Part shown: piece after piece, positions 5,644-55,449 of the stretch
Layout: every line of letters starts with the position of its first letter
How positions within the stretch are numbered: the stretch's first letter is position 1
IMG/VR virus record: IMGVR_UViG_3300031707_000016
Location: 1-62,003 of that record
Source: a virus
DNA: 62,003 nucleotides
Reading direction: 5' to 3' (one strand)
The notes under the pieces: generated by a model
Databases searched by the model: none
What the model saw: only the letters and a program-made list of their open reading frames with translations
Told to the model about the DNA's origin: nothing
Translations under genes and position numbers: made by a program

Positions 5644-5696
5644 AACTGTATATCCTTGTTACCATATCTACATATCAATACCAATGGTATAAAATG

Positions 5697-7967
5697 TTAA
5701 GAAAAGACGGTTTTTGTTCCGGCGGGGTTTATCCAAATTCTTTTTCCAAACGGTCCTGTAAGAAGTCCATCCGCCACGGCACTTCCAGTATATTTAACTG
5801 CAATTGACCTAGCAGTTTTGGTTGTGCTGATTGTTCCCTGTGTTGTGGTCAAATTTACGTAGTCATCTTCAACATTACTCAAATCAGAGACGTTTGTGTA
5901 ACACACTGCGCCGTCGCCCAATGCTGGATTGGGAGGAAAATGTGTGGGGAACTTCCAACCCAAGAGTCGGGTTCCAAGAACCGGGCAACTCCCAATGTTT
6001 GGAATATACAAGCTCTGAGAAATAGTCAAACTTCCAGATACGAAGGTAAGTAGGGTTGGGTCTGAAAGTCCATTTCCATTGAACGCATACAGACTCTCTC
6101 CGTTGGGGTCAAACGTCTGAATCGTTGACAGGTTGGAATACACCAAAGTAGAGTTGATATCATACAACTCTGCCTTCAATTGAAAAGGTTCATTGGCGAC
6201 GTTTACTTTGAACGGTATTTTTGTAAACAAAAGATCAGGAGAAAATCCATAATCGCTGTAAACCTTTAATGACAACTCCGAAAGAGTTACGCTACAGTGG
6301 AACGGCACAATTACCATAGTTCCATAATAGTCTGAGTTCGGCGTGAAATATAGGTACTGTTTGTCTGAAAACACTTTTATGGTAGTATTTTCGTTTGTGG
6401 CAACCGTACCCAGCTTCAATCCATACGGACTGATGTAATCTTTTTCTATGTTTATTCGTGGACTTGAGCTAGTGAAGTAAAAATCGATCTTGGCGTCATG
6501 CGTTGTTTTGGTTTTTTCCATGACCACATTCGCAGACAAAACGTACAACGCTCCCGCCTTTAGAGAAATGAAATTTGAGTTGTATGCCGAACCAGATATT
6601 CTATTAAATGATTCGCTATCATATGGATAGTAAATCCTGTCGTTGACCGTGTTGATTGAATCTGCCTTTACAATGACATATTGCGTTCCATCCATCTGCG
6701 AATATTGACTGGTCGAAATCTTCATTGCATCAATATACGGTTTTACAGAATGCGAAACCGCCATGAAGACCGAACTGGTAAACCAATATCTTTGAATATG
6801 TGACTGATTGTAAAAAGACCCCATCAAAGCATACGTCTTGTTATTGGTGATTGGATCTGTCAGCAATTCCAATGCATTGAGAGGTTCGTCTGCTATAAGT
6901 TGGAAATCTCCGGGGTAAACCAAACTCTTTCTATAAAGTTTGTGGCGAGCAACGAATCCAGAAAAGGGTCTTATGTTTCTATAAACTACTTCGGCATATG
7001 ACTGCTTGATGTATGTGGTTGCCCCGGTTGATACGTCAACAAATTTCAGATAGTCGTCCGACGCAGTATTGTATGCAGTCCATGTGTAAGACGAAGTAAA
7101 TGTTCCTTCGTTGACATTCGTAACAAACTGGTCCTTTCCTACAGTGTAGAAAAATGGATCACTAACCTGCATCGTTTTGCTGTCCAGAATGTTTTTTATT
7201 GTGAACGAAGCAGTCTGCCTCGTATCTTTGGTGACATAAGAATATGGAACTTGAAGCGTGGTGCTTGTAACGGTGATGGATTGTCCCTCCATCTGAGTAT
7301 TGAAAGACTTGGTTGGAAACAAGGTTGGTCCCGCCTGAGAGTCGGGAATATTCAAAATGATACGATAGTCAATATCCGCTTTCTTTGGGTTGATCGACTT
7401 TCGGTTGACATCCTTCTTGGGGGTTACTGCAAGCGAGTAGAAGTTTCCGTAAAAATTGACGGTCTTGGTCAATAGGTCGGCGGTGTTGTTTGTTACGATT
7501 GGATACAACAGACCACGAGATTCAATCGTCGGTTTATTATAGAATCTAACCTTGGAGGTATTTTGCAACGTCTTATCAATTGCGATGTTTCCAATCCAAC
7601 GGACAGTTTCCCCCTTGACCGTGGTTCCCAATAAGATAAGTTTTCCGGCACCGTTGTAAGTCTCCTCGTAAACGCCGATGGATATTAAGAAGTTTGCTAC
7701 GTCAGAATAGGATACATTGCTGTCAGGACGCTCTATGTAGAGAGAATTGCCATTGGAGTCGAGACACTCAACTTGAATTTCAGTTCCGGCCTTTAGGAGG
7801 GATGACCCGTTGAATGCCACTGGGTTTTTTCCACCTGTAAAGACAGGGTTGAACTCGGCAATAACGAAGTATTTTGATAGGTAACTGGTATCTTCGATGT
7901 CGGGTTTAAGGACTAAAAGTCCTAGATTGACACCCTTTTTTCCGAAACTGGACAACAATTGAGCCAT
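5697..7967 (-). CDS. large virion structural protein, unknown
   Basis: A 756-aa, beta-rich, Ser/Thr/Asn-rich protein (MAQLLSSFGKKGVNLGLLV) with low Lys content, typical of virion surface or tail proteins. No named domain is recognised. It stands between the packaging genes and the DNA-repair fusion gene and probably has its own late start: an ATATGTAT box ends 27 nt before the ATG, followed by a small GGGCA/TGCCC hairpin. Its length and composition match the adhesin-like proteins encoded at 15-28 kb. Virion location is inferred from composition only. Confidence 0.55.
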   Translation of the reverse strand: MAQLLSSFGKKGVNLGLLVLKPDIEDTSYLSKYFVIAEFNPVFTGGKNPVAFNGSSLLKAGTEIQVECLDSNGNSLYIERPDSNVSYSDVANFLISIGVYEETYNGAGKLILLGTTVKGETVRWIGNIAIDKTLQNTSKVRFYNKPTIESRGLLYPIVTNNTADLLTKTVNFYGNFYSLAVTPKKDVNRKSINPKKADIDYRIILNIPDSQAGPTLFPTKSFNTQMEGQSITVTSTTLQVPYSYVTKDTRQTASFTIKNILDSKTMQVSDPFFYTVGKDQFVTNVNEGTFTSSYTWTAYNTASDDYLKFVDVSTGATTYIKQSYAEVVYRNIRPFSGFVARHKLYRKSLVYPGDFQLIADEPLNALELLTDPITNNKTYALMGSFYNQSHIQRYWFTSSVFMAVSHSVKPYIDAMKISTSQYSQMDGTQYVIVKADSINTVNDRIYYPYDSESFNRISGSAYNSNFISLKAGALYVLSANVVMEKTKTTHDAKIDFYFTSSSPRINIEKDYISPYGLKLGTVATNENTTIKVFSDKQYLYFTPNSDYYGTMVIVPFHCSVTLSELSLKVYSDYGFSPDLLFTKIPFKVNVANEPFQLKAELYDINSTLVYSNLSTIQTFDPNGESLYAFNGNGLSDPTLLTFVSGSLTISQSLYIPNIGSCPVLGTRLLGWKFPTHFPPNPALGDGAVCYTNVSDLSNVEDDYVNLTTTQGTISTTKTARSIAVKYTGSAVADGLLTGPFGKRIWINPAGTKTVFS

Positions 7968-8007: not shown

Positions 8008-11000
8008 TCACTCAAAAATAACCTTACTGAAGTTGCCTTCCCGCTTGATCTCTATCTGTTTGTCCACAGCATCCTTGAGGGCATCAAGGTGAGAAATCAC
8101 CAATACGAAGTCAAAATTATTCTTCAAAAAGGAGAAGAGCGTGTACATGGACGCCAGATTGTCGGGGTCAAGTGTTCCAAATCCCTCATCAATCGCCAAG
8201 AAGGTCGTTTTGGGGAGATTGGATATGTTTGTGAGAGCGACACGAATGGCAATAGACGCAACAAACCGCTCATATCCCGATGTCAACTCAATTGGCCAAC
8301 GACCATACTCATAAACGACGTAGGGGATGATGTTCTTACCATCCGTCTCAAACTGAATGGTGTAATCCACCACTTGACTTAGGATGGAGTTCACTTCCTT
8401 CTCAATCTCTGGCACAGTATTGCAGATAACTTGATAGGGAATACCATCACGCCCCACCGCCAGCATGTAGTGCTGATAAGAGTCTGATTCATTTTCCAAC
8501 TCCGCAACCTCCTTCATGGTTTTGGTCAAGGTTTCGATGGTGCTGCGGAAAAGTTCCCGCTTTCCAGAAATATCCATCAACAAGCGATTCTGACGTTGAA
8601 ACTCCACGTCTAAGCGAGTGAGAGTATTGCGATATGTTCCGATTTTCGCCTGTACTCTTTCATTCATCATTACTGACGCTTCGTTGCGATGATACAGTTC
8701 AATTTGGTGGGTTGCTTCTTTAAGAACCGTGTCCAACTTTTCTAACTCATTCGTCGTGACAATGATGTTGCGGCTCAAAACTGCCGCTTCATCCTTGACC
8801 TTGCTTCGGTCTGTCAGTGCCTTGGTATAGGTTTCATACACCTGTTCAACCCAAACGAACTTGGCGAGTTCACTCCTAAGATTATCCAGATGCTCCAACA
8901 TTTTGTCCGCTTCCTTTTTATCGTCGGACAACTGTTTCTTTGCTTTACTCGCATCTTTGACGAAATCATTGTTGGTGCAAAATTTGCAATTCGGGTCATA
9001 CTCATGTTTATCCAGACGAGCGACCTTTTCCAACTTACCCTTAATCTCAACCTTCTTAAGATCCATCTTCTGCTTGACTTCGTTAATTTTATCCGAAAGA
9101 GACTTGTAAGTTTTGTGACTCTCAACCAAATTGGACTCTTCAATCTTCTTGATTTGTGCATTTAGGTCTGCAACCGTCTTTTCTTTCTCGGAGAGCAGAG
9201 TCTTAAATCCTTCCAACGCCTGCCGCTTCTGTTTAACCGAATTTTCGGAAGATGTCTTCTTGGTTTCCAAGGCGGGAAGATTGGTCGGAACTTCTGCATC
9301 CAAACGAATCAGGTTGGCAGTCTCCGAGATGATTTGGTTATTAACGTCGGCAATCTGCTTCTTGAGACTATCCACTTCTTTCTGGTTTTCATCGAAGAGA
9401 GAAACGGCATGTGCCAACGCACTGTCGTTCTGCTGAATTTCATGTGGATAGTTCTTGTCTTTGTGGAGTTTTAGAACGGCATTCAGTTCCTTATTTCGTT
9501 CTCCTGCCGACTCCTGTAGGCGGTCAAAGACGTTTAACCCAATGAATTGAACCATGAGGTCTTTTCTCTCGCTGTTACCCATGTCAATGAATGACGATAG
9601 ATTCTTAGCACTTTGGAATGATGCTGCTGTGAGAATGAAATCCTCATATGTTCCAATGTAGTCACGGATAATATCGTTGGTGTCACGTCTTGCCGTGCCG
9701 TGCAATTCTTCCTCCACCCCATTCTCCATCTTCCAGAATTTCACATCTACCTTGACATTGCCGGAACGAGTCGTAGAACCCTTGCGTTCAATGAAGTAGC
9801 GCACGCCGGAAATTTCAAACTCCAATTTGCATTTGAATGAGGTCTTCTGCACGTTCATGACGTGAACCCCCTTAAACCCACGATCAAATTTGTCAAACAG
9901 ACAGAAAATGATTGCTGAAAGAATGCTTGATTTACCGGATTTGTTCGGTCCAAATATTCCATACACTCCCGCCATAGATGTGAAATCCACAACGTTGTTC
10001 TCTCCATACGTGAACATATTGTCAAACTCAAATCGGATGGGTTTCCACTTGAGATTGCGAGCAAATTCGTCACGCTTAATGAGCAAATTCGTGTTTCGAT
10101 TGATTTTCAAAATCTCATCAATTTTGGATTGGTCTGTGATTAGAACCTTCTTCTGTAAGAACTCAGTGATGAGACGATTCTGATAATCAACGTTCGTCAG
10201 GTCGGTCAGAACGATGTCTTTACAGAGTGGAATGATGTCTTTTTTGTCTCGCTCTTGATCCATGCGGACATAGGCAGTTTCCACGACGAGTGCCAATTCC
10301 TTTATTTTGGAAATGACTGCCTTAACTTCGGACGCAATACTGTCGTAACACTTGAGACGAAGACGCACCTTCTTGGGAAGGTCTTTTAAGTCGGTTGTGA
10401 GCTGTCCCTTATTCACGTCAACCGTAAAGTATCCATAATCGTTCCTGAGTTCGTAAAATTCGTAAGTGCGAGTCTTCAAGTCCCACAATGAATATCCGTG
10501 ACCACGCAGACCTTCACCATGATTCTGTTGAATCATGCTGCCGACGTAATGTATGCATGGTTTGTGGTCGTCAGGCGCATAGTCCTGCATATCTTGCTTC
10601 TTATGTATGTCCCCGAGCAACGCAATATCGTTGTAGTCAAATAACGGGTTCATAATAGCAGGGTTGCTGATGGCATATCCCGTCTCCAACGCCGCCTTAT
10701 CTACCGCCCCGTGGAACATGGCGATGACGTGCTCATACTGATTGCGGTAAATGTCAGGAATGGTGTTACCTGCGATGTAGTGTTCGGGGGCGTCAAACAC
10801 GCCCATGTTGTTCCACAGAATGTTTCCAAATCCATACAGACCCGTGGTCTTGAGATAAAACAAGTTGGGATGATTGAGAGAATCAACCAGAGGAGTCAAA
10901 CTATCCAAGCGACTCTTATTTGACAATGTGGCGTCGTGGTTGCCCGCAATGAGAACCAGTGGACGAATGTCAGCAAGTGCCTTGAACAAATCCGTCGCCA

Positions 11001-11214
11001 TTTGAATACACTCAGGACTCAAATCCGACTTGCTATGAAATACGTCGCCTAACAACGCTACCACGGTCTCCGGTGGCGTTTGCTTAACTTCTTCATAGAG
11101 GTTGGCGAATACCTCCTTGTATTCATCATGTCGCTTATTCAGACGGATATGGATGTCTGCGACATGCAGAATATTGGTGTATTTTGGAAATGGTGAGGCA
11201 AGTACAGTTATCAT
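8008..11214 (-). CDS. single-chain Mre11-Rad50 (gp47-gp46) fusion
   Basis: A 1068-aa protein containing both subunits of the SbcCD/MR recombination nuclease. Residues 1 to about 380 are a metallophosphoesterase like Mre11/gp47: DIH 20-22, GD 56-57, GNHD 91-94, FHG around H168, GDIH 201-204 and GHGY 238-241. An SMC/Rad50-type ATPase follows directly: Walker A GPNKSGKSS 422-430, a long coiled coil with a zinc hook CKFC 743-746, signature SGYER 979-983, Walker B FLAIDEGF 1005-1012 and H-loop ISH 1040-1042. In T4 and most relatives gp47 and gp46 are separate genes. The primase gene overlaps the start by 4 nt. Expected role: processing DNA ends for recombination-dependent replication. Confidence 0.93.
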   Translation of the reverse strand: MITVLASPFPKYTNILHVADIHIRLNKRHDEYKEVFANLYEEVKQTPPETVVALLGDVFHSKSDLSPECIQMATDLFKALADIRPLVLIAGNHDATLSNKSRLDSLTPLVDSLNHPNLFYLKTTGLYGFGNILWNNMGVFDAPEHYIAGNTIPDIYRNQYEHVIAMFHGAVDKAALETGYAISNPAIMNPLFDYNDIALLGDIHKKQDMQDYAPDDHKPCIHYVGSMIQQNHGEGLRGHGYSLWDLKTRTYEFYELRNDYGYFTVDVNKGQLTTDLKDLPKKVRLRLKCYDSIASEVKAVISKIKELALVVETAYVRMDQERDKKDIIPLCKDIVLTDLTNVDYQNRLITEFLQKKVLITDQSKIDEILKINRNTNLLIKRDEFARNLKWKPIRFEFDNMFTYGENNVVDFTSMAGVYGIFGPNKSGKSSILSAIIFCLFDKFDRGFKGVHVMNVQKTSFKCKLEFEISGVRYFIERKGSTTRSGNVKVDVKFWKMENGVEEELHGTARRDTNDIIRDYIGTYEDFILTAASFQSAKNLSSFIDMGNSERKDLMVQFIGLNVFDRLQESAGERNKELNAVLKLHKDKNYPHEIQQNDSALAHAVSLFDENQKEVDSLKKQIADVNNQIISETANLIRLDAEVPTNLPALETKKTSSENSVKQKRQALEGFKTLLSEKEKTVADLNAQIKKIEESNLVESHKTYKSLSDKINEVKQKMDLKKVEIKGKLEKVARLDKHEYDPNCKFCTNNDFVKDASKAKKQLSDDKKEADKMLEHLDNLRSELAKFVWVEQVYETYTKALTDRSKVKDEAAVLSRNIIVTTNELEKLDTVLKEATHQIELYHRNEASVMMNERVQAKIGTYRNTLTRLDVEFQRQNRLLMDISGKRELFRSTIETLTKTMKEVAELENESDSYQHYMLAVGRDGIPYQVICNTVPEIEKEVNSILSQVVDYTIQFETDGKNIIPYVVYEYGRWPIELTSGYERFVASIAIRVALTNISNLPKTTFLAIDEGFGTLDPDNLASMYTLFSFLKNNFDFVLVISHLDALKDAVDKQIEIKREGNFSKVIFE

Positions 11215-12146
11215 AATCCTAGTTCGTAATTCAGTAAATCGGTAAAGTCAAATTCCCTAGACGTGTTAATCAGATCCGAGACTCGCTCAAACCCAAGCGA
11301 TGACGGATCTTTGCCGTTCAACTTAACAACGTGAACCTCAATGTTTGGAACGTCTTTTATCAGGAGTGAATAGTTCTTCACAGCATCTCTCAAAGCATCA
11401 CTATCCAACACGATGTTAACTCGCTTCGTGCCGTTGATAATCATCTTTTCTCGTAGTTTCTTTGATGGGTATTTTCCAAAAAGAGGAACGGCATTATTGC
11501 GGATGGCAATGGCATCGAATACACCTTCACAGAGATTGAGTGGTTCGTTGTAGTTGATAAAGATTTCAAACCCAACAAGGTCCATTGACACTTCGGGTTT
11601 TTTGTGGGGAATTGTTCCTTCACTCTCGTAATAGCGTCTGCCCATGAAAAAATTCAGATTACCTTTTGCATCGTATGATGGAACGATAATGTGATATGCA
11701 TATGGACCAGTCTCGCAATAACCGATGTTATATCTAAGTATGTCTTCACGGATGATTCCACGACGTTTCAGATACATCATGGCGTTCTTATATTCCGGCG
11801 AGGTTTTGGGTTGGGAGAGGGGGTGGAATTCCCCGGGAAGGGCAACCTCGGCTGATGCCACATACTTGCTCTGCATCGTAAACCGAACGTCTCCCGTCAG
11901 TTTAAGAAGACGATCCCGATAAGTCTTCGGTGCTTTGACTTTGGTCAGAAATGACCCAAGGAAAGACCCCTTGATATTGCATGTCCAACAGTGCCACTGT
12001 CCAGTCTCTAGGTTAATCTCCAACTTGCGCTTGTAGTGATGACAACAGGGGCAGAAATAAACCGCTTGCATACCGCCCTTACGCATACGGGCAGTCTGAT
12101 TCAGCAATTCATTGAGTAACCCAACAATCTGAGATTGCACCAACAT
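11211..12146 (-). CDS. 61: DnaG/gp61-type DNA primase
   Basis: A 311-aa primase. The N-terminal zinc finger is CPCC (32-35) with CWTC (53-56). The TOPRIM domain has LCEGVFDA (E207, D211) and IVLDSDA (D248, D250). This order (zinc-binding domain, RNA-polymerase-like core, TOPRIM) matches T4 gp61 and bacterial DnaG; at 311 aa it lacks room for a DnaG-type helicase-binding domain. Its stop overlaps the Mre11-Rad50 start by 4 nt. The start codon sits 1 nt after a perfect 9-bp stem-loop that contains the only GAGG-like sequence, so initiation may be structure-controlled. Confidence 0.9.
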   Translation of the reverse strand: MLVQSQIVGLLNELLNQTARMRKGGMQAVYFCPCCHHYKRKLEINLETGQWHCWTCNIKGSFLGSFLTKVKAPKTYRDRLLKLTGDVRFTMQSKYVASAEVALPGEFHPLSQPKTSPEYKNAMMYLKRRGIIREDILRYNIGYCETGPYAYHIIVPSYDAKGNLNFFMGRRYYESEGTIPHKKPEVSMDLVGFEIFINYNEPLNLCEGVFDAIAIRNNAVPLFGKYPSKKLREKMIINGTKRVNIVLDSDALRDAVKNYSLLIKDVPNIEVHVVKLNGKDPSSLGFERVSDLINTSREFDFTDLLNYELGL

Positions 12147-12147
12147 G

Positions 12148-12173
12148 CCTCAAGAATACTCGACTTCTTGAGG
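12148..12173 (-). promoter_or_regulatory. stem-loop abutting the primase start codon
   Basis: CCTCAAGAA pairs perfectly with TTCTTGAGG (9 bp, 8-nt loop), ending 1 nt before the primase ATG. No T-tract follows in the transcript direction, so it is not a typical terminator. The 3' arm contains the only purine-rich GAGG near the start, which would be hidden when folded. A translational operator is the simplest reading. Confidence 0.55.
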
Positions 12174-12187
12174 AAACTCAACTTATT

Positions 12188-12841
12188 TTAATGTGACGCC
12201 GACAACTCGTAAAATGTCACTTTTGCCTGTTTTGAACCCACATTGTCAATGCAATAGCATCCTGCCTTGAAATAAAAAGTGCAGGGGTTCCATTCAGGCA
12301 CTAACTGAACGGTTTTACTTTTGCCGTTCACGGTGATTGTTGCCGTAAGATCTACAACCTTTATTTCATACTTGATTTGTTTGCTCAATGAGTACTTTCC
12401 AAAATCAAGTTTTATATCTGTACTGTCCGATGGAGACTTCTTGAATTCAGCAACTAACTTGCCCGCATTATAAACCATCTTAAATAGGGGAAGCGAGGTT
12501 CCGTCTTTCCCGTGAATCTGTCCAATGATTACTTTTTTAGAAGGAGGGACTTTGTTTATGGCACACGTTGCCGAAAGAATGTTTGTGCCGGTCAGTTTCC
12601 AGTTTACTCTGTCTGACTTCCCATCTATAAGCTCTCGCAGTTCTGTCCTTGGATAAGATGACCCAAGCGTGTGTCCTCCGTTTGTAGGTGTGGAAAATAT
12701 GAGTTCGCCGTCACTTCCCTTTGTAAACCATTCGGGATGTGTCCACCCACCCACCAAGTTAGCGGGGGAGATTTCTGTGGGAGGCGTAGAATCTGGAAGA
12801 GTTAGCTTCCAATGGGAAAGGTCGATATTGTATTTTGTCAT
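12188..12841 (-). CDS. alginate lyase, polysaccharide lyase family 7
   Basis: A 217-aa protein with the three PL7 signatures in order: RTELR at 65-69, QIH at 108-110 and YFKAGCY at 190-196. Known family residues (Arg65, Gln108, His110, Tyr196) are all present. PL7 enzymes are jelly-roll beta-elimination lyases cleaving alginate or related polyuronates. There is no signal peptide, so it would be released at lysis or carried on the virion. It is a single-domain lyase of near-minimal family length, placed among DNA-metabolism genes rather than with tail fibres. It overlaps the upstream GIY-YIG-like gene by 4 nt. Substrate is inferred, not shown. Confidence 0.88.
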   Translation of the reverse strand: MTKYNIDLSHWKLTLPDSTPPTEISPANLVGGWTHPEWFTKGSDGELIFSTPTNGGHTLGSSYPRTELRELIDGKSDRVNWKLTGTNILSATCAINKVPPSKKVIIGQIHGKDGTSLPLFKMVYNAGKLVAEFKKSPSDSTDIKLDFGKYSLSKQIKYEIKVVDLTATITVNGKSKTVQLVPEWNPCTFYFKAGCYCIDNVGSKQAKVTFYELSASH

Positions 12842-13158
12842 AGGGATGATTGTTTTGTTTCCGATGCCCGTTCTGTATATTCTTCCAATTGCTCCTCCAA
12901 GCGACTCTTTGCCATGTGCAAGGCAATTTCATACCACTCCCCCTTAATATCATGGGCAAACCGCTTCATGGTCTCTTTGATGTTTTTCTCCGCTTGGCGG
13001 AAGTCGGGATGATGGACGGAATAGACGATGCGGTAGCGGCGGAAAGGGTCTCCGGTTTGATAAACATGAAGACGTTGAGTCAAGTCAAAAGTTGTTCCAA
13101 CTTTAACCCAGTTGGGGAATGCGTCATTTGTAATGAGGTACAAGTAACCCGATTTCAT
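12838..13158 (-). CDS. GIY-YIG-like (T5orf172/MUG113-type) small protein
   Basis: A 106-aa protein with the pattern YLYLITN, VKVGTTFDLTQRL, YQTGDPFRRYRIVY, an AE pair and GEWY. This matches the T5orf172 branch of the GIY-YIG superfamily, which is common in phages. The catalytic-type Tyr, Arg and Glu positions appear present. It overlaps the alginate lyase by 4 nt, so the two are co-translated. It may be a stand-alone nuclease or a DNA-binding accessory; which is not evident. Confidence 0.7.
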   Translation of the reverse strand: MKSGYLYLITNDAFPNWVKVGTTFDLTQRLHVYQTGDPFRRYRIVYSVHHPDFRQAEKNIKETMKRFAHDIKGEWYEIALHMAKSRLEEQLEEYTERASETKQSSL

Positions 13159-13163
13159 AAAAC

Positions 13164-13652
13164 TTATTCTGTCTTAGGACGACTCAACGAGTCTTTAATG
13201 TCTTGGGTATATGCCTTTTTTTGAACTGCTTGAACCGCTATTGATTCGGCGGTTACTTCTTTCTGTGGAATGAGGAGTTCTGAAATGCGATTCGTCGGCG
13301 GCACTGCCAGTGGAGTTAAAAGTGGAGGAGTAGTAAGTGCCAATTGATTTGAACGACTTTCTCTCCAACGAGCTTGTGCAGCACTCATTGATTGTGCAAC
13401 CGCCGTGTTGACTATGTTGGATTGATTGTAGATAACGATGGATAACTGATTTGAAAGACTTTCTAATTGAACTTCATACCCCGCCAATTTGCCGGACAGA
13501 GAATCGATCAAATGGGTCATGTCTCGGCGAGTGCCCTGAACCTTGTCGTCAACCGATGTCGCACCTTTCCATACAATGGTGGAAGCTCCTAAAAATACCG
13601 CAACTACCAATGCGCTAATTGCATTGGTGACTATTTTGTTCCATTCAATCAC
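13164..13652 (-). CDS. membrane-anchored coiled-coil protein (possible lysis accessory)
   Basis: I place the start at the GTG at 13652, whose GTGA overlaps the upstream stop, giving 162 aa beginning (V/M)IEWNKIVTNAISALVV. One hydrophobic segment covers about residues 8-27, followed by a charged segment, a coiled-coil stretch and a Pro/Thr-rich linker. This topology (N-terminal anchor, periplasmic helix) would fit an Rz-like spanin or holin accessory, but no diagnostic motif is present. The longer ATG reading frame starting at 13736 runs through the upstream gene and is less likely. Confidence 0.5.
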   Translation of the reverse strand: MIEWNKIVTNAISALVVAVFLGASTIVWKGATSVDDKVQGTRRDMTHLIDSLSGKLAGYEVQLESLSNQLSIVIYNQSNIVNTAVAQSMSAAQARWRESRSNQLALTTPPLLTPLAVPPTNRISELLIPQKEVTAESIAVQAVQKKAYTQDIKDSLSRPKTE

Positions 13653-13855
13653 TTGTAGATCTCCATGTATTTTGGGTCCGTGTGCATACAATCGTCGCAC
13701 ACATATTCTTCGGTGTCTCGGGCAAATTCTTTCCAACTTCCCTCGGCAACCAGATAATAACCACCAGTGACAATTGCTCCCGTCGTTTTACACTTGTCAA
13801 TGATTCCCTCCACAGATTTCCCGCAGCGGTCACACGTTATCGTGATGTTCTTCAT
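13649..13855 (-). CDS. small zinc-finger protein
   Basis: A 68-aa protein with CDRC near residue 8 and CDDC near residue 53, a probable single treble-clef or ribbon. The start is an ATG preceded 6 nt upstream by an ATATTTAT box; no Shine-Dalgarno sequence is visible. The stop overlaps the next gene's GTG start by 4 nt. Specific function unknown; small Zn-binding phage proteins often act on host or phage regulators. Confidence 0.65.
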   Translation of the reverse strand: MKNITITCDRCGKSVEGIIDKCKTTGAIVTGGYYLVAEGSWKEFARDTEEYVCDDCMHTDPKYMEIYK

Positions 13856-13861
13856 ACACCA

Positions 13862-13869
13862 ATAAATAT
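13862..13869 (-). promoter_or_regulatory. ATATTTAT box before 68-aa gene
   Basis: Coding-strand ATATTTAT overlapping the stop of the RuvC-like gene by one base and ending 6 nt before the ATG at 13855. It belongs to a set of similar boxes interpreted here as late -10-like elements. Confidence 0.5.
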
Positions 13870-14369
13870 CACGCCATTGCTATAACAACTGCATCATATG
13901 TGTCTTCGTTATGAGCATCCCACGTTCCCCGCTTGTTCATTTTATCAAAAGAATGGACATATGGAAACCGAGCATCAATTTGCTGCCGAACATATTCCTT
14001 GCCAGTCATACCTTTGACTCTGGCCTTTCCAAAAACAGCCTTGCGGGCAGTGGTAGCATTTATCAAACGGACCCCTATTTTGAAGTGTTCTGAAACTATG
14101 TATTCAAAGACAGCATTGAAACGGGCAAGTTTGATGATGACTTGTTGACTGGTTCTCCCCATCATAAATCCGGAGAGAGCAGACTCCAAGTTGATTTGAA
14201 GTACCTTTGAAATCAGTGGATGGGCGTCCATGAGAGATATAATTCGTAACGCCTTTTCTTTGTTTGTCGGACACTCGGAAATATCTACAAATCCAGCATC
14301 CAGTATAACCGTTCCATCATAGAACGCCCACCCACAAATCGTTGTTGATGCATCAAATCCTAGCACCAT
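13869..14369 (-). CDS. RuvC-like Holliday-junction resolvase
   Basis: A 166-aa RNase H-fold nuclease starting MVLGFDASTT. Acidic residues fit the RuvC layout: D6 in the first strand, E62 (INLESALSG), and D151/D156/D159 in the final DAHNEDTYDAVVIA helix. A branched-DNA nuclease (the role T4 gives to endonuclease VII) would resolve recombination intermediates before packaging. The start is chosen at this internal Met because the family begins there; a longer frame to 14456 overlaps the upstream gene. The gap to the upstream stop is 4 nt. Confidence 0.82.
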   Translation of the reverse strand: MVLGFDASTTICGWAFYDGTVILDAGFVDISECPTNKEKALRIISLMDAHPLISKVLQINLESALSGFMMGRTSQQVIIKLARFNAVFEYIVSEHFKIGVRLINATTARKAVFGKARVKGMTGKEYVRQQIDARFPYVHSFDKMNKRGTWDAHNEDTYDAVVIAMA

Positions 14370-14373
14370 AATC

Positions 14374-14943
14374 TTAGAAGTCAATTTTTCCAAGTGACCC
14401 GGTGCCAGCATATGATGCGGACACTGAGCACGTTGCCCACGACGCAGAGACCGCATATGGCGAAGACCGATATGAGGTCACATAGCAAGTATTGGATCCG
14501 AGGAACGAATCCCTCCATTGCCACTTGTTTCGGATGTAGGCATCAAATTCATTGGTATCCAACTCAACCTCAGATTCAACGCACAACTCCAAACGACGAA
14601 TTGTTCCCGTGTAATCATCTCCGTGGTCTTCGGGATATTTCCCTTGCCAATAATTGAACCGCTTGGTCTTGTCTTTGGCCTTGACCAAATCCAAATCGTT
14701 CTTCGTATAGACTTTTAGCAGTTTGGTCGCCTCTTTGCGTGCTTTTCTAAGCTGTTTGAGCTTTTCACGATGACTTTTGTTGATTTGTTCCAACTGTTCC
14801 TTCTCATTCTTTTTCAAATGAGTTTCTGCATCCAACCAGTATCCGGCGATGGCCTCAGTTAGAACCAAATCGTGTTTGGTCTTGTTCTCTTGAACAATTT
14901 TCAGAACTTCTTCTCTCGAAACTTTGACTTGCTGTAGTGACAT
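14374..14943 (-). CDS. coiled-coil hypothetical protein
   Basis: A 189-aa protein: residues 1-100 are highly charged helices with a coiled-coil character (KKNEKEQLEQINKSHREKLK), and the C-terminal 40 residues are Ser/Ala/Tyr-rich and probably flexible. No known domain. It is the first gene after the strong terminator at about 15.0 kb and precedes the RuvC-like gene, suggesting the start of a replication/recombination transcription unit. Confidence 0.6.
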   Translation of the reverse strand: MSLQQVKVSREEVLKIVQENKTKHDLVLTEAIAGYWLDAETHLKKNEKEQLEQINKSHREKLKQLRKARKEATKLLKVYTKNDLDLVKAKDKTKRFNYWQGKYPEDHGDDYTGTIRRLELCVESEVELDTNEFDAYIRNKWQWRDSFLGSNTCYVTSYRSSPYAVSASWATCSVSASYAGTGSLGKIDF

Positions 14944-15372: not shown

Positions 15373-17775
15373 TTAGTAATCCATTTTGACAACAAAATTG
15401 ATTGGAAGCTCGGGAATAATCTTGATGGGTGTTCCTAGTTTGGCGACACCAACCAAGTCCAAACCACTGTAAAGTCCAATGGTTGTTGCCATTGGAGCCA
15501 AAAACGACCCCGTTTTATCCAATGCAACCGAATGCTCGTAATCAAAAAATTCTGGAACGATTTGTGCAGTGGCAGTCTTTTGAGTCACGAAGTTTAGATA
15601 ATCAATGACATCACTGAAGAGTTTTTTCTTACAGGAAGGAGTGATGTAAGTTGCGTAATTCTCCTGAGTCAAACGATTGGCGAAATACTTCCACACAATG
15701 TTCATGTCTCGAATGTCAATTCGGTTATCCTCGTTCAAATCCAACACGTCTTGAACCCATGTATCAACCAACTCCCATCTCACTATGCTTTCGCTGGCGA
15801 GGAATGAAGTGTATTCGTTGTTGTAGGTATTAGCATCTTGGTGGTAATTTAGGAAGCTGATTTCATCATCAGACGTTACGATGGATGAACTCCAATCGGT
15901 CGAGACCGGCTGTCCCAAAAACGAGGTATTCTTGTACTGCATGTAACGAAGAATGATGTCGGCATCTTGGAAATCAAACTCTCCATTTCCGTTGATGTCA
16001 AGGGATGCGGTTGGCTTGTACACTGCCGTAGGGTTGGTGCTGACGTTGAATTCGCCCGGGCTTACTGTGCAAACAACCTGCTTCTCAAAAATGGTATGTT
16101 GACCCTTGAATTGCAGGTCGTATTCGTAAGTGCTCGTATTCACCGCATTGAAGAACAACCCGTCAAACACAGACCCAGAGGTCATGATGACAATCTTTCC
16201 GTTTCTATAGAAAACGTTTCCGACGTGAAACTCATCACGCAGATTCTTGAGATTGTAGATGTATGCCTTGCCCATTATATCATCTAAGGAAATGTTATTG
16301 CTTTGTGTAGTGGAAATATCCATCTGACGGATGTCGTTAGACAGAATCATCGGTGCGCCGACAACCATAGACCTGTCAGCAATAGATACATCGTTTCCAA
16401 AGTCACGATATGGACTTAGATACTTCTTCTTTTTTTGATAGACGTTGGTGATTTCCCAATCGAGAGAGGAAGTGTTTTTTTGAAGAAGCATTGCCTGACC
16501 ATTGAGAGTGTTCTCCAAATTGTTTGTGCATTGATGGAGTTGGTCTATCGTCGCAGCAACATAACACGAGGTCAAAGTTTCGTTGTCTGTTTTTGGAATT
16601 CCGACAACCGCATTGCTTTGAAATATGTCCACCGAATACCCGAGGCGGTTATTCTTCATGGTCAAGTCCGTGCCGTAAGTCTTCAAAACCAAATCAAACT
16701 TTGTATAGGGAAGATTCTTACACTTTTCAAATACGTAAACCGAACCCTGTTCGTAAACCGATGACCCGCTGAATTCATACACCAGTCGGTCTAGGGGTGC
16801 TCCAACCACAACCGCTTCATCAAATGTGGATACTGCGTATCCAAATCCATTGGTGATGTTCATGGTTGGGTTATAGGGTGCATACCCTCCAAACGTCAGT
16901 GGAAGAATATCAGTCGTTGGGAAAAACTCAAATGTCTGGGTCCAACTTCCACTTACAAATTCAAAATAATATGCTTGACCATTGGCTTGATTTCCACATC
17001 CAACAACCATGCTTTGACTTACAGACCCGCTCTGTTTATTGAGCTTCAAGTCCCATCCAAATTGGGCATCCGCCACCGAACCAGATGGCTCAATTCTCTG
17101 GAAGAAACTCCAACTGTAATTGCTTCCGGTGGAGATGTTGCGATACATGTAAACCGTTCCTTTGGAAGAACTTACATGAGGAGACCCGATTGCAATCCAC
17201 GAACTGTTTATGCTTACTCCCCATCCAAATGAAGAAGTGACGGCTATATCTGGATTGTTGAAACTGAATACAAAACTACTCTGACTTAGAGGAATAAACT
17301 CGGTTCTTCCGAAATCGTGAACGTCAACCGACGCACCTGAAGCGGTGATGATACTCGCACTTGTGATAACAATTTGTGTAGCATATGGAGAACCAACAAT
17401 CAACAGTTTTCCATACATGTCAATGGATTTGCCGAATGCGTTATCCACCGAGGCGGTGTATCGGTCTTTATCAATAATAAGATCTGCCAGTGGCCCCACT
17501 ACGCTTCCTGTTTCGGTGTTTATTTGGTAAACCGTGCTGTTAGTGAGTTCGGTTTCCAAAATCACATTGACCTCAAATCCGACGTTGTAAATGGTATTTA
17601 CATAATCGTGGGAGTCAGTGCTCTTATTATAACGAAAAAAGTCCACTGAACCAGTGTGATACACACTGGCAGTAGCAGCGTTGAAACGCAAAAAATCTGG
17701 ATTCGACACCACTACGTAATCACCGTAAGTGGCGACTGCATACCCATAATTTTCATTTTTTACTTGAACAAACAT
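15373..17775 (-). CDS. FG-GAP beta-propeller virion protein with dockerin-like calcium loops
   Basis: An 800-aa protein. Residues 1 to about 520 carry repeated FG-GAP-type blades (YGYAVATYGDYVVV, FGWGVSINSSWIAIGSP, FGYAVSTFDEAVVVGAP, LGYSVDIFQSNAVVG, FGNDVSIADRSMVVGAP), an integrin-like propeller. Two EF-hand/dockerin-type loops follow: DINGNGEFDFQDADI near 593 and DLNEDNRIDIRDMNI near 679, about 86 residues apart, wider than in classical dockerins. The C-terminal segment (TTIGLYSGLDLVGVAKL) resembles the end of the 380-aa protein at 25151-26293, suggesting a shared virion attachment segment. Likely an adhesin or tail-associated protein. Confidence 0.75.
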   Translation of the reverse strand: MFVQVKNENYGYAVATYGDYVVVSNPDFLRFNAATASVYHTGSVDFFRYNKSTDSHDYVNTIYNVGFEVNVILETELTNSTVYQINTETGSVVGPLADLIIDKDRYTASVDNAFGKSIDMYGKLLIVGSPYATQIVITSASIITASGASVDVHDFGRTEFIPLSQSSFVFSFNNPDIAVTSSFGWGVSINSSWIAIGSPHVSSSKGTVYMYRNISTGSNYSWSFFQRIEPSGSVADAQFGWDLKLNKQSGSVSQSMVVGCGNQANGQAYYFEFVSGSWTQTFEFFPTTDILPLTFGGYAPYNPTMNITNGFGYAVSTFDEAVVVGAPLDRLVYEFSGSSVYEQGSVYVFEKCKNLPYTKFDLVLKTYGTDLTMKNNRLGYSVDIFQSNAVVGIPKTDNETLTSCYVAATIDQLHQCTNNLENTLNGQAMLLQKNTSSLDWEITNVYQKKKKYLSPYRDFGNDVSIADRSMVVGAPMILSNDIRQMDISTTQSNNISLDDIMGKAYIYNLKNLRDEFHVGNVFYRNGKIVIMTSGSVFDGLFFNAVNTSTYEYDLQFKGQHTIFEKQVVCTVSPGEFNVSTNPTAVYKPTASLDINGNGEFDFQDADIILRYMQYKNTSFLGQPVSTDWSSSIVTSDDEISFLNYHQDANTYNNEYTSFLASESIVRWELVDTWVQDVLDLNEDNRIDIRDMNIVWKYFANRLTQENYATYITPSCKKKLFSDVIDYLNFVTQKTATAQIVPEFFDYEHSVALDKTGSFLAPMATTIGLYSGLDLVGVAKLGTPIKIIPELPINFVVKMDY

Positions 17776-26947: not shown

Positions 26948-27529
26948 TTATGCTCCGATTTTTTCTCTGTGAGAAATTATTTTTCCAACGGAAATTGCTG
27001 CTTTGTGTTCTTCCGAATAAACACGTCCGACATTGAACAGTTGTGCTTTCTTGATATTCTCACGAGAGCTTTTTCGCCCAATAAATTTTTCTATGGTTTC
27101 TGGTGAATGCTTTCTACCTTTTCTCTGAATAGACATCTGTTTCTTTTGTTCTTCTGTCCACCGAGGTTTCCCTTTTTGAGCAAGTGATATTTTTTGTTTT
27201 ACCCACTCCGGTCTATTACTCCCCGGCAAAACAATACATTTTGCGTCCTTCCTAATGTTATAACATTCAGGACACCCTACCCATACATCCAACTCTTTTT
27301 GCTCTTCCACCAATAAATCTTCTTTGGAACACTCTCGCAAAACCTCCACCAAAAATGAGTCTTTGCCATATTTGTTCCAAGCATTTTGTAGATGAGGATT
27401 GTCATGAACTCCTCGAACTAACTTTGCTTTATGACCTTCTTTCCAACGACGAACAATGTCATCCGAACTACCAAGATAGAACTTTCCATTTTTGGTGTTT
27501 CTTATTCTATAGATGCCGATTGTGGCCAT
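26948..27529 (-). CDS. GIY-YIG homing endonuclease with NUMOD-type repeats
   Basis: A 193-aa protein: GIY-YIG nuclease domain at the N-terminus (GIYRIRNTKNGKFYLGSS, then R27/R28 region and E at about 74), then helix-turn-helix NUMOD-like repeats (GKPRWTEEQKKQMS, GRKHSPETIEKF, GRVYSEEHKAAIS). This is a free-standing mobile endonuclease of the SegA/Hef type family. It interrupts the virion operon between the 233-aa and 214-aa genes. No intron splice signals or split gene were noticed at the insertion point. Confidence 0.9.
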   Translation of the reverse strand: MATIGIYRIRNTKNGKFYLGSSDDIVRRWKEGHKAKLVRGVHDNPHLQNAWNKYGKDSFLVEVLRECSKEDLLVEEQKELDVWVGCPECYNIRKDAKCIVLPGSNRPEWVKQKISLAQKGKPRWTEEQKKQMSIQRKGRKHSPETIEKFIGRKSSRENIKKAQLFNVGRVYSEEHKAAISVGKIISHREKIGA

Positions 27530-51960: not shown

Positions 51961-52034
51961 TGGCTGGGGATGTTAGAATCGAACTAACACGTTGACTTTC
52001 AGAGAGTCCTATGCTACCACTACATCAATCCCCA
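51961..52034 (-). tRNA. tRNA-Gln(CTG)
   Basis: Acceptor TGGGGAT/ATCCCCA with U1 as in other glutamine tRNAs, CCA encoded, T-loop TTCGATT, anticodon loop CTCTGAA. Decodes CAG. Confidence 0.88.
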
Positions 52035-52042
52035 ATACAAAT

Positions 52043-52116
52043 TGGTGGAGCCAAGGGGAATCGAACCCCTATCCCATCACTGCCAGCGATATGTCCTACC
52101 GTTGAACGATGGCCCC
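52043..52116 (-). tRNA. tRNA-Ala(GGC)
   Basis: Acceptor GGGGCCA/TGGCTCC with the alanine identity pair G3-U70, A discriminator, CCA, T-loop TTCGATT, loop CTGGCAG. Confidence 0.92.
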
Positions 52117-52208
52117 ATGTCAGCGGAACGTGCCCGCCGATTTGATTCACAACACTCTAAGGTGTTGGAGTTCCGGCTTCTTTATACACCCGCCTCCCGG
52201 TGTTAATT
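52117..52208. other. hairpin-rich spacer between two alanine tRNAs
   Basis: On the minus strand: ACACC/GGTGT, GCCG/CGGC enclosing AACAC/GTGTT, and GCGG/CCGC hairpins. It is reminiscent of a degenerate class II tRNA but no legal acceptor, T-loop or CCA is present. Confidence 0.45.
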
Positions 52209-52282
52209 TGGTGGAGCTGAGGGGAATCGAACCCCTATCTACGCAGTGCAAGTGCATCGTCCTACCGTTGAACGACAGCCCC
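52209..52282 (-). tRNA. tRNA-Ala(TGC)
   Basis: Acceptor GGGGCTG/CAGCTCC with G3-U70, CCA encoded, T-loop TTCGATT, anticodon loop CTTGCAC. Nearly identical in body to the other two alanine tRNAs. Confidence 0.92.
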
Positions 52283-52291
52283 GAAAACAAC

Positions 52292-52380
52292 TAGATGCCG
52301 CCTTTATAGTCAGCGTGACTCCCCTTGCGGGAATTTAGGTTTGCTTATTAGGCAAATATTTGTGTTGCAGTGTGCATCTA
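52292..52380 (-). ncRNA. candidate structured RNA spacer, cloverleaf-like
   Basis: TAGATGC and GCATCTA close the spacer. Inside (minus strand) lie TTTGC/GCAAA around CTAATAA, CCC/GGG, and AGTCA/TGACT hairpins. The layout mimics a tRNA with a 7-nt anticodon-like loop but has no T-arm, so it is not annotated as tRNA. Transcription on minus strand is assumed from the tRNAs. Confidence 0.4.
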
Positions 52381-52387
52381 AAAAAAG

Positions 52388-52460
52388 TGGTTGCGGTCGC
52401 CAGAATTGAACTGGTCCCTGACCTTATGAGAGTCATGTGCAGCCATCACACTTCCCCGCA
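52388..52460 (-). tRNA. tRNA with CAT anticodon (Met, or Ile after lysidine modification)
   Basis: 73 nt: acceptor TGCGGGG/GACCGCA with two mismatches on the inner side, A discriminator, CCA, anticodon loop CTCATAA, T-loop TTCAATT, variable loop of 3 nt. U1-A72 argues against initiator identity. Mismatches make it divergent. Confidence 0.75.
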
Positions 52461-52499
52461 ATCCGAAATTGTAAAAAGAACATACTATCTACTACATCC

Positions 52500-52507
52500 A
52501 TAAATAT
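52500..52507 (-). promoter_or_regulatory. ATATTTAT box before the tRNA(CAT) group
   Basis: Located just past the stop of the CoaD-like gene and 39 nt upstream of the tRNA 5' end, at the head of a run of four tRNAs. It is the case where the box precedes an RNA gene and not an ORF. Confidence 0.45.
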
Positions 52508-52527
52508 AGCAGTTGTTCTCAAAAACG

Positions 52528-52986
52528 TCAAGAAGAAACGACGTATTTCTTGTATTCGTCTTGAGAAAACTTCTCAATACCCCGAAGCGCACTTGAACTG
52601 ATGTGCCGAAACTTTGGGTCGCAATAGAATGCCAAAATTTTGATGCGGGGATACATTCCCCGCAGAAACGCCACGATGTTTTGCTCGTAATCCAAGTCCG
52701 CACCGTTACGCAATCCACGAACCAGCGTCACATTGTATTGTTCTTCTTGCTGCTTAATCATATCAATCAGCAAGGTGTCGTATGAAGTTGTTTTGACTCC
52801 GAGGGAATCCTCCAAAAACTTCACCGGCAAAGGATACCGAGAGGCGATTTGATTTGCCTTCTCTGGATTTACTCCCTTGGCGACCAACACATGGTCAAAC
52901 ACCTGTAATGCTTGATTCACGATGTCCAAATGACCTACATGAAAGGGGTCAAATGAACCGGCATACAATCCTAATGTATTTATCAT
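52528..52986 (-). CDS. phosphopantetheine adenylyltransferase-like (CoaD-like)
   Basis: A 152-aa nucleotidyltransferase with GSFDPFHVGH at 10-19, VRGLRNGAD at 89-97, and HISSSALR at 128-135. The VRGLR motif and ISSS loop match CoaD (PPAT), which makes dephospho-CoA from phosphopantetheine and ATP; NadD-like relatives are less similar. Start and motif spacing fit the family exactly. A TTGACA-17-TAGACT promoter ends 9 nt before the ATG, implying an almost leaderless message. A CoA-pathway enzyme carried by a phage is a candidate metabolic gene; activity is inferred. Confidence 0.85.
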   Translation of the reverse strand: MINTLGLYAGSFDPFHVGHLDIVNQALQVFDHVLVAKGVNPEKANQIASRYPLPVKFLEDSLGVKTTSYDTLLIDMIKQQEEQYNVTLVRGLRNGADLDYEQNIVAFLRGMYPRIKILAFYCDPKFRHISSSALRGIEKFSQDEYKKYVVSS

Positions 52987-52995
52987 CTTGAGAGG

Positions 52996-53024
52996 AGTCT
53001 AACAGAGAGGACTTGAAATGTCAA
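52996..53024 (-). promoter_or_regulatory. sigma70-like promoter for the CoaD-like gene
   Basis: TTGACA, 17-bp spacer, TAGACT. The -10 ends 9 nt before the ATG, so the transcript would start about 2-3 nt before it. Confidence 0.65.
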
Positions 53025-53033
53025 GGGGAAATC

Positions 53034-53438
53034 TTACCACCACAGATGACGGAACCACTTGGAAAACAAGTCCATACCTTCTTGGTATCGTTTCCAGTTT
53101 TCGGTCTGTACTTCCTCTGAGAGTCCATCATACTTATCCTCCTCATGGTTTAGTGACCAGTCAAAGGCGAAAATCATTTTGTCCAACATTGCTTCCCACT
53201 TATGTTCATCAATGTCTTCCCAACCACCGGGAAATCCGTTGTGGAGTTCACGGAAGCGAATGAGGCGAGGCAAGATGAACTGGCAGATAACCGAATCCAG
53301 TGACCACGTTTCTGCATCGGAGAACCCATTCTCCTTCAGCTGCTTAACGTGGCGAGCATATCTCTTGTCTGTCTTTTCAACATAAAGAGGCTTTTTGAGA
53401 GACCAATCACTCGTCAGTTTTCTACTCAACTTTTTCAT
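53034..53438 (-). CDS. hypothetical protein, 134 aa
   Basis: A basic N-terminus (MKKLSRKLTSDWSLKKPL) followed by ETWSLDSVICQFILPRLIRF and a Trp-rich C-terminal helix. The WSLD...FILPRLIRF pattern recurs in uncharacterised phage proteins, from memory. It overlaps the kinase-like gene start by 4 nt, so the two are co-translated. Confidence 0.6.
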   Translation of the reverse strand: MKKLSRKLTSDWSLKKPLYVEKTDKRYARHVKQLKENGFSDAETWSLDSVICQFILPRLIRFRELHNGFPGGWEDIDEHKWEAMLDKMIFAFDWSLNHEEDKYDGLSEEVQTENWKRYQEGMDLFSKWFRHLWW

Positions 53439-53884
53439 AGTTTATCCCATACGATGCGAAGAGACTCGTCGGCAGTCAACCCCTTGGTGTCAACGCAGAT
53501 GAAGTTCTCGGTGGGTTCTTCAAAATCATTCCGCTTAAATTCTTCACGGACATGAGCACCGGAATTTACCACGAGAATTTCACGGACGTTTTTGTTGCGG
53601 TTCTTAAATTCTTCCCTCACGGCACGGTCAGAGTTTACGGTGGAAACAATAACGGAGACGCCCTGATTATCAACATGTTCCACAAATGTCTGCAACTTGC
53701 GGGTATTACTGTCCCGATATTCTTTGGTGAAATGTTCTTGGTGATACGTGCCTCCGAAAATACGGCGCAAATCATCGCCATCAAGATGAATGGATGGCAT
53801 TCCGGTTGCATCAAACTGCGACTTGAGTTTCTTTGCCAATGTGGTCTTACCACAACCTGCTTGTCCGATGAACCAGTATATCAT
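53435..53884 (-). CDS. APS-kinase-like P-loop kinase (CysC-like)
   Basis: A 149-aa protein with Walker A GQAGCGKTT at 7-15 and HLDGDDLRRIF at 33-43, the DGD(D/N)xR motif of adenylylsulfate kinases. CysC converts APS plus ATP to PAPS for sulfate assimilation or sulfation. The protein is shorter than CysC (about 200 aa), so it may phosphorylate another small substrate or nucleotide. It begins 13 nt after tRNA-Ala(CGC) and overlaps the next gene by 4 nt. Confidence 0.72.
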   Translation of the reverse strand: MIYWFIGQAGCGKTTLAKKLKSQFDATGMPSIHLDGDDLRRIFGGTYHQEHFTKEYRDSNTRKLQTFVEHVDNQGVSVIVSTVNSDRAVREEFKNRNKNVREILVVNSGAHVREEFKRNDFEEPTENFICVDTKGLTADESLRIVWDKL

Positions 53885-53897
53885 AACATTTTTAGAG

Positions 53898-53971
53898 TGG
53901 TGGAGCCGAGGGGAATCGAACCCCTATCTAGTCAGTGCGAGTGACCTATCCTACCGTTGAACGACGGCCCC
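53898..53971 (-). tRNA. tRNA-Ala(CGC)
   Basis: Acceptor GGGGCCG/CGGCTCC with G3-U70, CCA encoded, T-loop TTCGATT, anticodon loop CTCGCAC. With GGC and TGC it completes the alanine box. Confidence 0.92.
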
Positions 53972-53988
53972 GTGGAAACCGAAATTTG

Positions 53989-54099
53989 TATAGCGACTCG
54001 GGAGCCACACCGCTACCACAGATAGCTTTTCTGCGATTTCCCATTAGAGGAACGAATCCCCAATTATTGGGCAAAGAGCACGCCAGCTGGTGCGCTATA
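53989..54099 (-). ncRNA. candidate structured RNA spacer
   Basis: TATAGCG and CGCTATA (7 bp) close a 111-nt segment. Internal hairpins on the minus strand are CCCAA/TTGGG, TTCC/GGAA and GCTA/TAGC. It is 17 nt from the tRNA-Ala(CGC) 5' end. No tRNA-like acceptor with CCA is present; role unknown. Confidence 0.4.
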
Positions 54100-54211
54100 A
54101 CGAAGCGTCCGGCGTTTATTTCATTTACGTAACGTAGCGTTCGACGCTACAATGTGCGAACGACGTTTTCACAGAGAACCATTCAATGGTTCAATCTGTG
54201 AACGAAAGGGT
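54100..54211. repeat. two strong hairpins in tRNA-region spacer
   Basis: 54134-54150 folds as GTAGCGT/ACGCTAC. 54168-54202 is a near-perfect 35-nt hairpin: TTCACAGA/TCTGTGAA outer and GAACCATT/AATGGTTC inner arms. No terminator T-tract follows. These are among the densest palindromes in the window. Confidence 0.7.
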
Positions 54212-54295
54212 GAGGTAGGTAGTGCGTTTCTGAGTTAACAGGGGGGTCTGCACCAAGACTGCCCTTACGGAATCCTCCTATCGGGCACCTACCTC
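54212..54295 (-). ncRNA. candidate structured RNA closed by 9-bp helix
   Basis: GAGGTAGGT and ACCTACCTC form a 9-bp terminal helix around an 84-nt segment containing GCCC/GGGC, GTCT/AGAC and CTG/CAG arms. Acceptor-like but the 3' side continues ACCC rather than ACCA and T-loop is absent, so it is not a standard tRNA. Confidence 0.5.
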
Positions 54296-54654
54296 ATTAT
54301 GTATTTGTCGCAGCCGTAGCCGAGGTTCTGTTCTATTCTTACATTTATCTCACATTGTTGATGGCGTGGTGAAACCAAGAACCGAACGGCCATATATCAC
54401 CTTTAGGCACTAAATGGTCCATCAACTCCGTGCCCACGATTAACCGTGGGTGCCCCAACCCGAGCGTTACAACGATAAGCACTAATCTTTGCTCTGTTTG
54501 GGTTACTCCTAATTTGTGGTATTAACGTGGATTTTGATGTCCACTCCCAATCATCTGCTTTGGAGGCTCGAACTTCCTCTACATGCTCTTTCAATCTGTA
54601 ATAGCACGCAGCGTAAGATCGCTTACGACAAAATCTCAAAGAACTGACAATACC
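54296..54654. other. intergenic region with further hairpins, no convincing gene
   Basis: Contains GGTTCT/AGAACC inside GCCG/CGGC (54313-54391), CCCACG/CGTGGG (54432-54450) and CGTAAG/CTTACG (near 54611-54628). The only frame, 78 codons from a TTG at 54639, lacks signals and crosses the hairpins, so I do not call it. I see no promoter. Confidence 0.5.
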
Positions 54655-55032: not shown

Positions 55033-55037
55033 ATGGT

Positions 55038-55447: not shown

Positions 55448-55449
55448 GG

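Follow-up and report, generated by a model that had tools for sequence, protein, structure and literature searches.

A tailed-phage Mre11-Rad50 fusion in one reading frame, kept across a group of mostly environmental phages

We propose that a gene of the virus record IMGVR_UViG_3300031707_000016 (62,003 bases, analysed whole and called the window below) encodes a tailed-phage Mre11-Rad50 (SbcD-SbcC) fusion protein of a kind described in 2011, which would work as an ordinary M2R2 complex; we put the probability of this reading at about 0.88. The fusion is real and no artefact, the fused form is the rule in this phage group, and the one-chain arrangement has been conserved in a large set of phages, most of them environmental. 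The sequence-only reading from which this work started gave separate subunits as the established background, which is incomplete, as fusions in the same order were published in 2011. Yoshida, Claverie and Ogata (2011; PMC3175470) describe an N-terminal Mre11 fused to a C-terminal Rad50 in Mimivirus R555, add twelve further cases from bacteria, eukaryotes, plasmids such as that of C. kluyveri, and Bacillus phage 0305phi8-36, and propose several fusion events across all life. They report R555-like sequences to be abundant in aquatic metagenomes and infer that most of these are viral; some of the scaffolds concerned also carry primase genes. Among the papers listed in our literature search on Mre11/Rad50 fusion, this was the only one to address fusion in its title, and a review of jumbo phages (PMC7824862) calls SbcC and SbcD nearly universal in them, its passages at hand making no mention of fusion. 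The fusion has thus been known as a kind since 2011, and the window supplies one more member, backed by a well-defined group of phages.

That Mre11 motifs precede Rad50 motifs in one 1068-codon frame, as first read from the sequence, is borne out by the frame itself, by Pfam and PHROGs, by the motifs of an alignment of 115 distinct complete fused proteins (window included), and by the fold. Pfam finds a Metallophos domain over residues 14-205 that passes its cut-off (E 1.5e-11), and SMC_N, AAA_23 and SbcC_Walker_B matches within 398-628 and 979-1027, all below their curated cut-offs, while PHROGs gives an SbcD-like match at 13-342 (phrog_100, 4.6e-19) and an SbcC-like match at 274-1066 (phrog_77, 6.7e-54). 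A sequence search of the PDB found its best Rad50 chain at 8.1e-17 and its best Mre11 chain at 0.0011. The NCBIfam SbcC and SbcD models match as well, below their cut-offs, which marks the protein, judged by its sequence, as a divergent member. Phosphoesterase motifs I-V are all found, and the Rad50 set is complete, with Walker A, signature, Walker B, D-loop and H-loop and a CxxC hook between coils; the CKFC hook and SGYE signature are as had been claimed (Table 1). Invariant in all 115 rows are D20, D57, N92, H93, H168, D202 and H204 on the nuclease side and N424, G427, K428, S979, E982, D1009, E1010 and H1042 on the ATPase side.

Relatives were sought in three scans of IMG/VR, with the Mre11 part only, the Rad50 part only and a profile of divergent fusions as queries, which returned at least 586, 543 and 592 relatives respectively; the best 80 loci of each were read. 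The scans share contigs, so that their counts are not additive, the ranking is biased towards loci that match fused queries well (a bias weakest in the Mre11-only and Rad50-only scans), and the relatives bear no taxonomy, so that a mimivirus among them would go unrecognised. The junction is split in none of the loci of any best-80 set, a few of which end too early to judge. The Mre11-only set holds 65 complete fused ORFs (open reading frames) of 1044-1088 amino acids and two further full-length loci whose Walker A begins with Ser (L125, L155); eleven loci run off their contig with the frame open, nine of them including Walker A and two (L110, L146) being too short, and the last two are interrupted far past the junction, one after 770 amino acids (L102) and one by a stop after 942 (L116), on the same contigs as L084 (770) and L052 (942) of another scan. 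In 77 of the 80 Rad50-only loci the frame extends at least 361 residues upstream of the match and includes two nuclease motifs; the other three run off the contig, L244 with both nuclease motifs, L190 and L195 too short to judge. The divergent-fusion set has nuclease, N-head and C-head in one ORF in 68 of 80 loci, and nuclease plus N-head in one ORF running off the contig in the other 12.

Fused genes are also found in GenBank, in Microcystis phage Mel-JY01 (1066 amino acids), Tenacibaculum phages PTm1/PTm5 (1318) and pT24 (1310), Sphingomonas phage PAU (gp288, 1301), Chryseobacterium phage MA9V-1 (1326) and an unannotated 735-kilobase (kb) phage. In the named phages they are labelled 'AAA domain containing protein', 'DNA repair exonuclease', 'DNA repair', 'metallo-phosphoesterase' or simply gp288, and a PHROG of 1376 positions named metallo-phosphoesterase matches the PTm5 protein over 4-1315. 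The proposed database check thus found proteins with both domains in this order in IMG/VR and in GenBank phages alike, and neither the split near the junction nor the invariably two-gene homologs that would have spoken against the sequence-only reading were seen in the three best-80 sets. An assembly or sequencing error might have joined two adjacent ORFs, and indeed Bacillus phage Grass, Vibrio phage MAR10 and the T5-like phage PL1 have both genes as direct neighbours in the same order, where a small error could do so; against this stand the complete ORFs of the Mre11-only set, including the two with a variant Walker A, the 115 distinct fused sequences, a protein identical to that of the window on another IMG/VR contig (L005), and the fused genes of independently sequenced phages. 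An origin by sequencing error or read-through is ruled out by the relatives in the three scans, and we leave the error practically no chance.

A scan of genome contigs gave two relatives out of 140 stretches (L098, L099), on metagenome-assembled Flavobacteriales and Bacteroidota contigs. These are possibly viral, as phage contigs binned with their hosts, and their placement agrees with the fact that several fused phages infect Bacteroidota. The plasmid collection holds only partial matches to the window protein, in 12 records of which none covers 80% (E limit 1e-5), and only one match, again partial, to the protein of the 735-kb phage. In a 484-kb uncultured phage (LR756508.1; L002 5001-9181) the fused gene is broken once more, this time within the nuclease: its first frame stops 34 residues past the GDIHKRQ motif, the remainder forms a separate 863-amino-acid frame, and between them lies an HNH-endonuclease-like ORF (5680-6594; phrog_1271, with a TnsA-like N-terminal Pfam match). 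Rfam gave no match to a group I intron there at gathering score, only one weak match to an unrelated family (E 0.36). From its sequence this looks like the splitting of the gene by a homing endonuclease at a catalytic motif.

The joined form also appears to be under selection. Between the window and a relative identical at 977 of 1068 residues (IMGVR_UViG_3300032053_000613; L006), the ratio of non-synonymous to synonymous substitution rates (dN/dS) is 0.031 for residues 318-389, with no amino-acid change in 379-389, values which are rough because synonymous sites are near saturation. On this comparison of sequences, purifying selection acts across the junction, and the kept linker together with the low dN/dS at the junction indicates that selection maintains the joined form. 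In L006 (3390-7475) a NUMOD3 homing-endonuclease ORF (6625-7386) lies just behind the fusion gene, whose last approximately 60 codons differ from those of the window, and behind the endonuclease comes a stretch resembling (78%) the final 32 codons of the window gene. The arrangement suggests that a mobile element swapped the 3' end of the gene and left the gene whole.

An AlphaFold2 model of the window protein as a monomer, with 24 relatives, has a mean predicted local distance difference test score (pLDDT) of 80.5. VIA-align places model residues 390-1068 within E. coli SbcC 1-1044 (7yzo_D; Z 31.0, root-mean-square deviation (rmsd) 3.1 over 350 residues), 12-317 onto S. aureus SbcD (7dog_A; Z 24.4, rmsd 3.4 over 275) and 10-317 onto E. 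coli SbcD (4m0v_A; Z 23.3, rmsd 3.8 over 289), and residue 390 is therefore where Rad50's own first residue would be. In two-gene systems the C-terminus of Mre11 consists of a tether followed by a helix-loop-helix that grips the root of the Rad50 coiled coil. The order seen in the window, a low-confidence stretch that is probably flexible, two predicted helices and 11 residues, matches the C-terminus of a stand-alone Mre11, and the helix-loop-helix, among whose residues Q345 (99%), N372 (97%) and N376 (93%) are conserved, occupies the place of Mre11's Rad50-binding domain. The suggestion that the junction, put at about residues 300-395, would correspond to the Rad50-binding helices is thereby upheld, at the level of a model, by the two helices predicted at this expected site. 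The linker that follows is 11 residues long in 109 of the 115 rows, 10 in three and 12 in three, and carries conserved R386 (83%) and N387 (89%) ahead of an invariant W390. PMC3175470 gives the same order of tether and helix-loop-helix and works out from the T. maritima complex that 9-12 residues would suffice as a linker, an estimate within which that of the window falls.

The fusion might be accompanied by a free Rad50, made by internal initiation or by processing. Some Met occurs in columns 325-398 in 53 of the 115 rows, and TTG369, TTG377 and ATG400 are in frame in the window, but a simple pattern found no Shine-Dalgarno-like match to internal starts within codons 318-401 of the window, and ATG400 falls in the first Rad50 strand (389-398 in the model), past the invariant W390. 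We therefore consider a free Rad50 improbable.

The model further predicts long helices before and after the hook, at about 571-736 and 750-920, giving coil arms of approximately 165-170 residues each. The Rad50 half has 679 amino acids, as compared to 560 in T4 gp46, 639 in Staphylococcus phage ISP, 633 in Grass and 1048 in E. coli SbcC, and the arm length fits a Rad50 half somewhat larger than those of T4 and Herelleviridae and smaller than SbcC. The description of the coiled coil as short hence holds against E. coli SbcC and fails against the phage proteins.

Several points weigh against the proposed reading. Beyond the saturation of synonymous sites, the predicted template modelling score (pTM) of the fold model is just 0.43, so that the model carries no weight on the docking of the two halves; the record, at 62 kb, may be a fragment; no match to a UvsX-like recombinase was found among the 27 window proteins scanned with PHROGs; and the position of P. 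furiosus His206, an Mn ligand, is occupied by Asp (D202) throughout the 115 rows. Phosphoesterase motif V thus reads G-D-x-H (GDIH in the window) as compared to G-H-x-H in T4 gp47 and E. coli SbcD. Furthermore, the motif I His (H22) is present in 101 rows and replaced by Gln in 14, and these substitutions could alter the chemistry of the nuclease. If so, the enzyme may have been repurposed, its nuclease lost or changed, and its main role may be to tether DNA ends or to act in counter-defence. Asp, too, is a metal ligand, and the remaining nuclease-side residues listed above are invariant; G-D-x-H moreover occurs in the split proteins of MAR10 and PL1. According to PMC3175470, Mimivirus R555 shares the Asp, together with a His in motif II GDxxH (H60 here, kept in 113 rows). 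Taken together we regard repurposing as very improbable.

The ordinary M2R2 reading fits these observations as follows. The helix-loop-helix would dock on the coiled-coil root of its own chain, the linker being just long enough for this, and two chains would come together as M2R2, held by the face used in Mre11 dimers, by the heads with ATP sandwiched between them and by the zinc hook. Such a complex would open and trim phage DNA ends in an ATP-dependent manner, and by analogy with T4 gp46/gp47 this end processing may feed recombination, replication and repair. Fusion would ensure co-synthesis of the two activities and their co-inheritance beside the primase, and probably leaves the chemistry unchanged. 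The canonical Mre11-Rad50 complex is already an equimolar M2R2, and the point that fusion fixes a 1:1 stoichiometry, while correct, adds little. That the zinc hook alone would form the complex does not follow, because the head-dimerisation residues of signature, D-loop and H-loop are intact and the Mre11 dimer is a known interface, Mre11 dimers being among the solved structures by their PDB titles. The present genes supply full-length phage versions of fusions that the 2011 study saw in aquatic metagenomes as partial sequences only. A one-chain complex would be handy experimentally, with docking tethered and heads, hook and nuclease alterable in one gene, and little is added to knowledge of the mechanism.

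Whether the phage fusions arose once was addressed with trees of 19 fused phage-type proteins and 9 split pairs, chosen by hand. In the concatenated tree all fused rows lie on one side of a branch (100/97) with one change of state, and the Mre11-only (84/94) and Rad50-heads-only (94/87) trees likewise give one change each, on branches below treekit's mark for a firm branch. Long branches in four split rows and an odd letter make-up in E. coli and MAR10 are weak points; split pairs are few, R555 and the cellular fusions are not included, and E. coli SbcCD, apart from which the fused rows lie, is the sole cellular pair. As far as sequence trees go, the evidence leans towards a single fusion event in phages. 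Neither GDxxH nor GDxH is diagnostic of the fused clade or of kinship with R555: the first is also present in the split proteins of Herelleviridae and PL1, the second in those of MAR10 and PL1, and the fused PAU protein carries GHIH. A bolder scenario would derive all phage fusions from one ancient fusion that spread from aquatic medium-sized phages into megaphages and into jumbo phages, most of which infect Bacteroidota, and that was the source of R555, with the linker and its R-N-x-x-W end locking the helix-loop-helix to its own head so that the nuclease assembles in cis. We hold this to be rather unlikely; if true, it would supersede the published picture, in which fusions arose repeatedly and independently.

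Matches to terminase, portal, baseplate-wedge and tail-fibre proteins among the window proteins identify the virus, by homology, as a tailed phage whose tail is probably contractile. The stop codon of the primase gene overlaps the start codon of the fusion as ATGA, and a same-strand primase match lies upstream in all 81 fetched relatives having at least 1.1 kb upstream, at a median spacing of 36 bases and a maximum of 1068, some of these loci being one contig fetched twice. Window positions 8008-14500 gave zero blastn matches against phages.

Table 1. Features of the fusion gene and of its upstream neighbour, in window coordinates
Feature	Position	Strand	Basis
Mre11-Rad50 (SbcD-SbcC) fusion gene	8008..11214	minus	single ATG frame, 1068 codons plus stop, uninterrupted
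Mre11/SbcD nuclease and capping domains, residues 10-317	10264..11187	minus	VIA-align to SbcD structures; motifs
Low-confidence stretch, residues 320-336	10207..10257	minus	pLDDT <50; poorly conserved, many rows gapped
Predicted helix-loop-helix, residues 342-378	10081..10191	minus	model helices 342-357 and 362-378
Inter-domain linker, residues 379-389	10048..10080	minus	alignment, 115 rows
Rad50/SbcC ATPase with coiled coil, residues 390-1068	8011..10047	minus	VIA-align to E. coli SbcC
Walker A, GPNKSGKSS, residues 422-430	9925..9951	minus	alignment, 115 rows
Zinc hook CKFC, residues 743-746	8977..8988	minus	both Cys in 114/115
ABC signature SGYE, residues 979-982	8269..8280	minus	S979, E982 115/115; G980 113/115
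Walker B, FLAIDE, residues 1005-1010	8185..8202	minus	D1009, E1010 115/115
H-loop His1042	8089..8091	minus	115/115
DNA primase gene, directly upstream of fusion	11211..12146	minus	phrog_47 DNA primase, 6.5e-34

Elsewhere in the window, an alginate lyase (12188-12841; PF08787, E 2.1e-50) adjoins the primase and is perhaps a polysaccharide depolymerase, hinting at a host in alginate-rich surroundings. An 800-amino-acid protein with FG-GAP repeats and a dockerin match (15373-17775), unusual in a phage, is perhaps a virion adhesin. Near the tail genes is a homing-endonuclease match (26951-27529; phrog_314, 2.6e-30, also to a GIY-YIG family), and 14 tRNA genes are clustered on the minus strand at 51961-61374. 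ARAGORN also calls a transfer-messenger RNA (52043-52418), a probably spurious prediction that shares sequence with two of the tRNA-Ala genes.

Like R555 and its aquatic homologues, as PMC3175470 describes them, the window has Mre11 first and Rad50 second in one ORF, with a region of capping/helix-loop-helix size and a short linker between nuclease and ATPase, both R555 substitutions, a primase gene on the same scaffold and a setting among aquatic viruses. By its published description there R555 is longer, at 1351 amino acids as compared to 1068, with a coil said to be of cellular length, and the fusion of Bacillus phage 0305phi8-36 is incomplete, without the capping/helix-loop-helix part and one P-loop segment, whereas that of the window is complete. 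The Mel-JY01 protein, on whose phage no paper was found in our literature search, aligns with 99% of the window protein at 38% identity and likewise has a primase upstream, with one small ORF between. The PTm5 and PAU proteins are 24% and 23% identical to that of the window over approximately three quarters of the Mre11 part and about 230-250 residues longer.

Two genes are found in T4, Kayvirus ISP, Bacillus phage Grass, Enterococcus phage EfsSzw-1, cyanophage ACG-2014d, Vibrio phage MAR10, the T5-like PL1 and Lak-B6 (code 15). T4 gp47/gp46 and Herelleviridae SbcD/SbcC resemble the window in having the same domains, nuclease before ATPase, with phage replication genes around; in T4, ISP and EfsSzw-1 the two are separated by small ORFs. 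T4 gp47 differs from the window in its motifs GDIFD and GHFH, and each of the three Herelleviridae examined has its primase downstream of the split SbcD and SbcC, whereas in the window it lies upstream of the fusion. Finally, E. coli SbcCD is like the window protein in fold and unlike it in being encoded by two genes, in its SbcC of 1048 amino acids and in its canonical GHIH.

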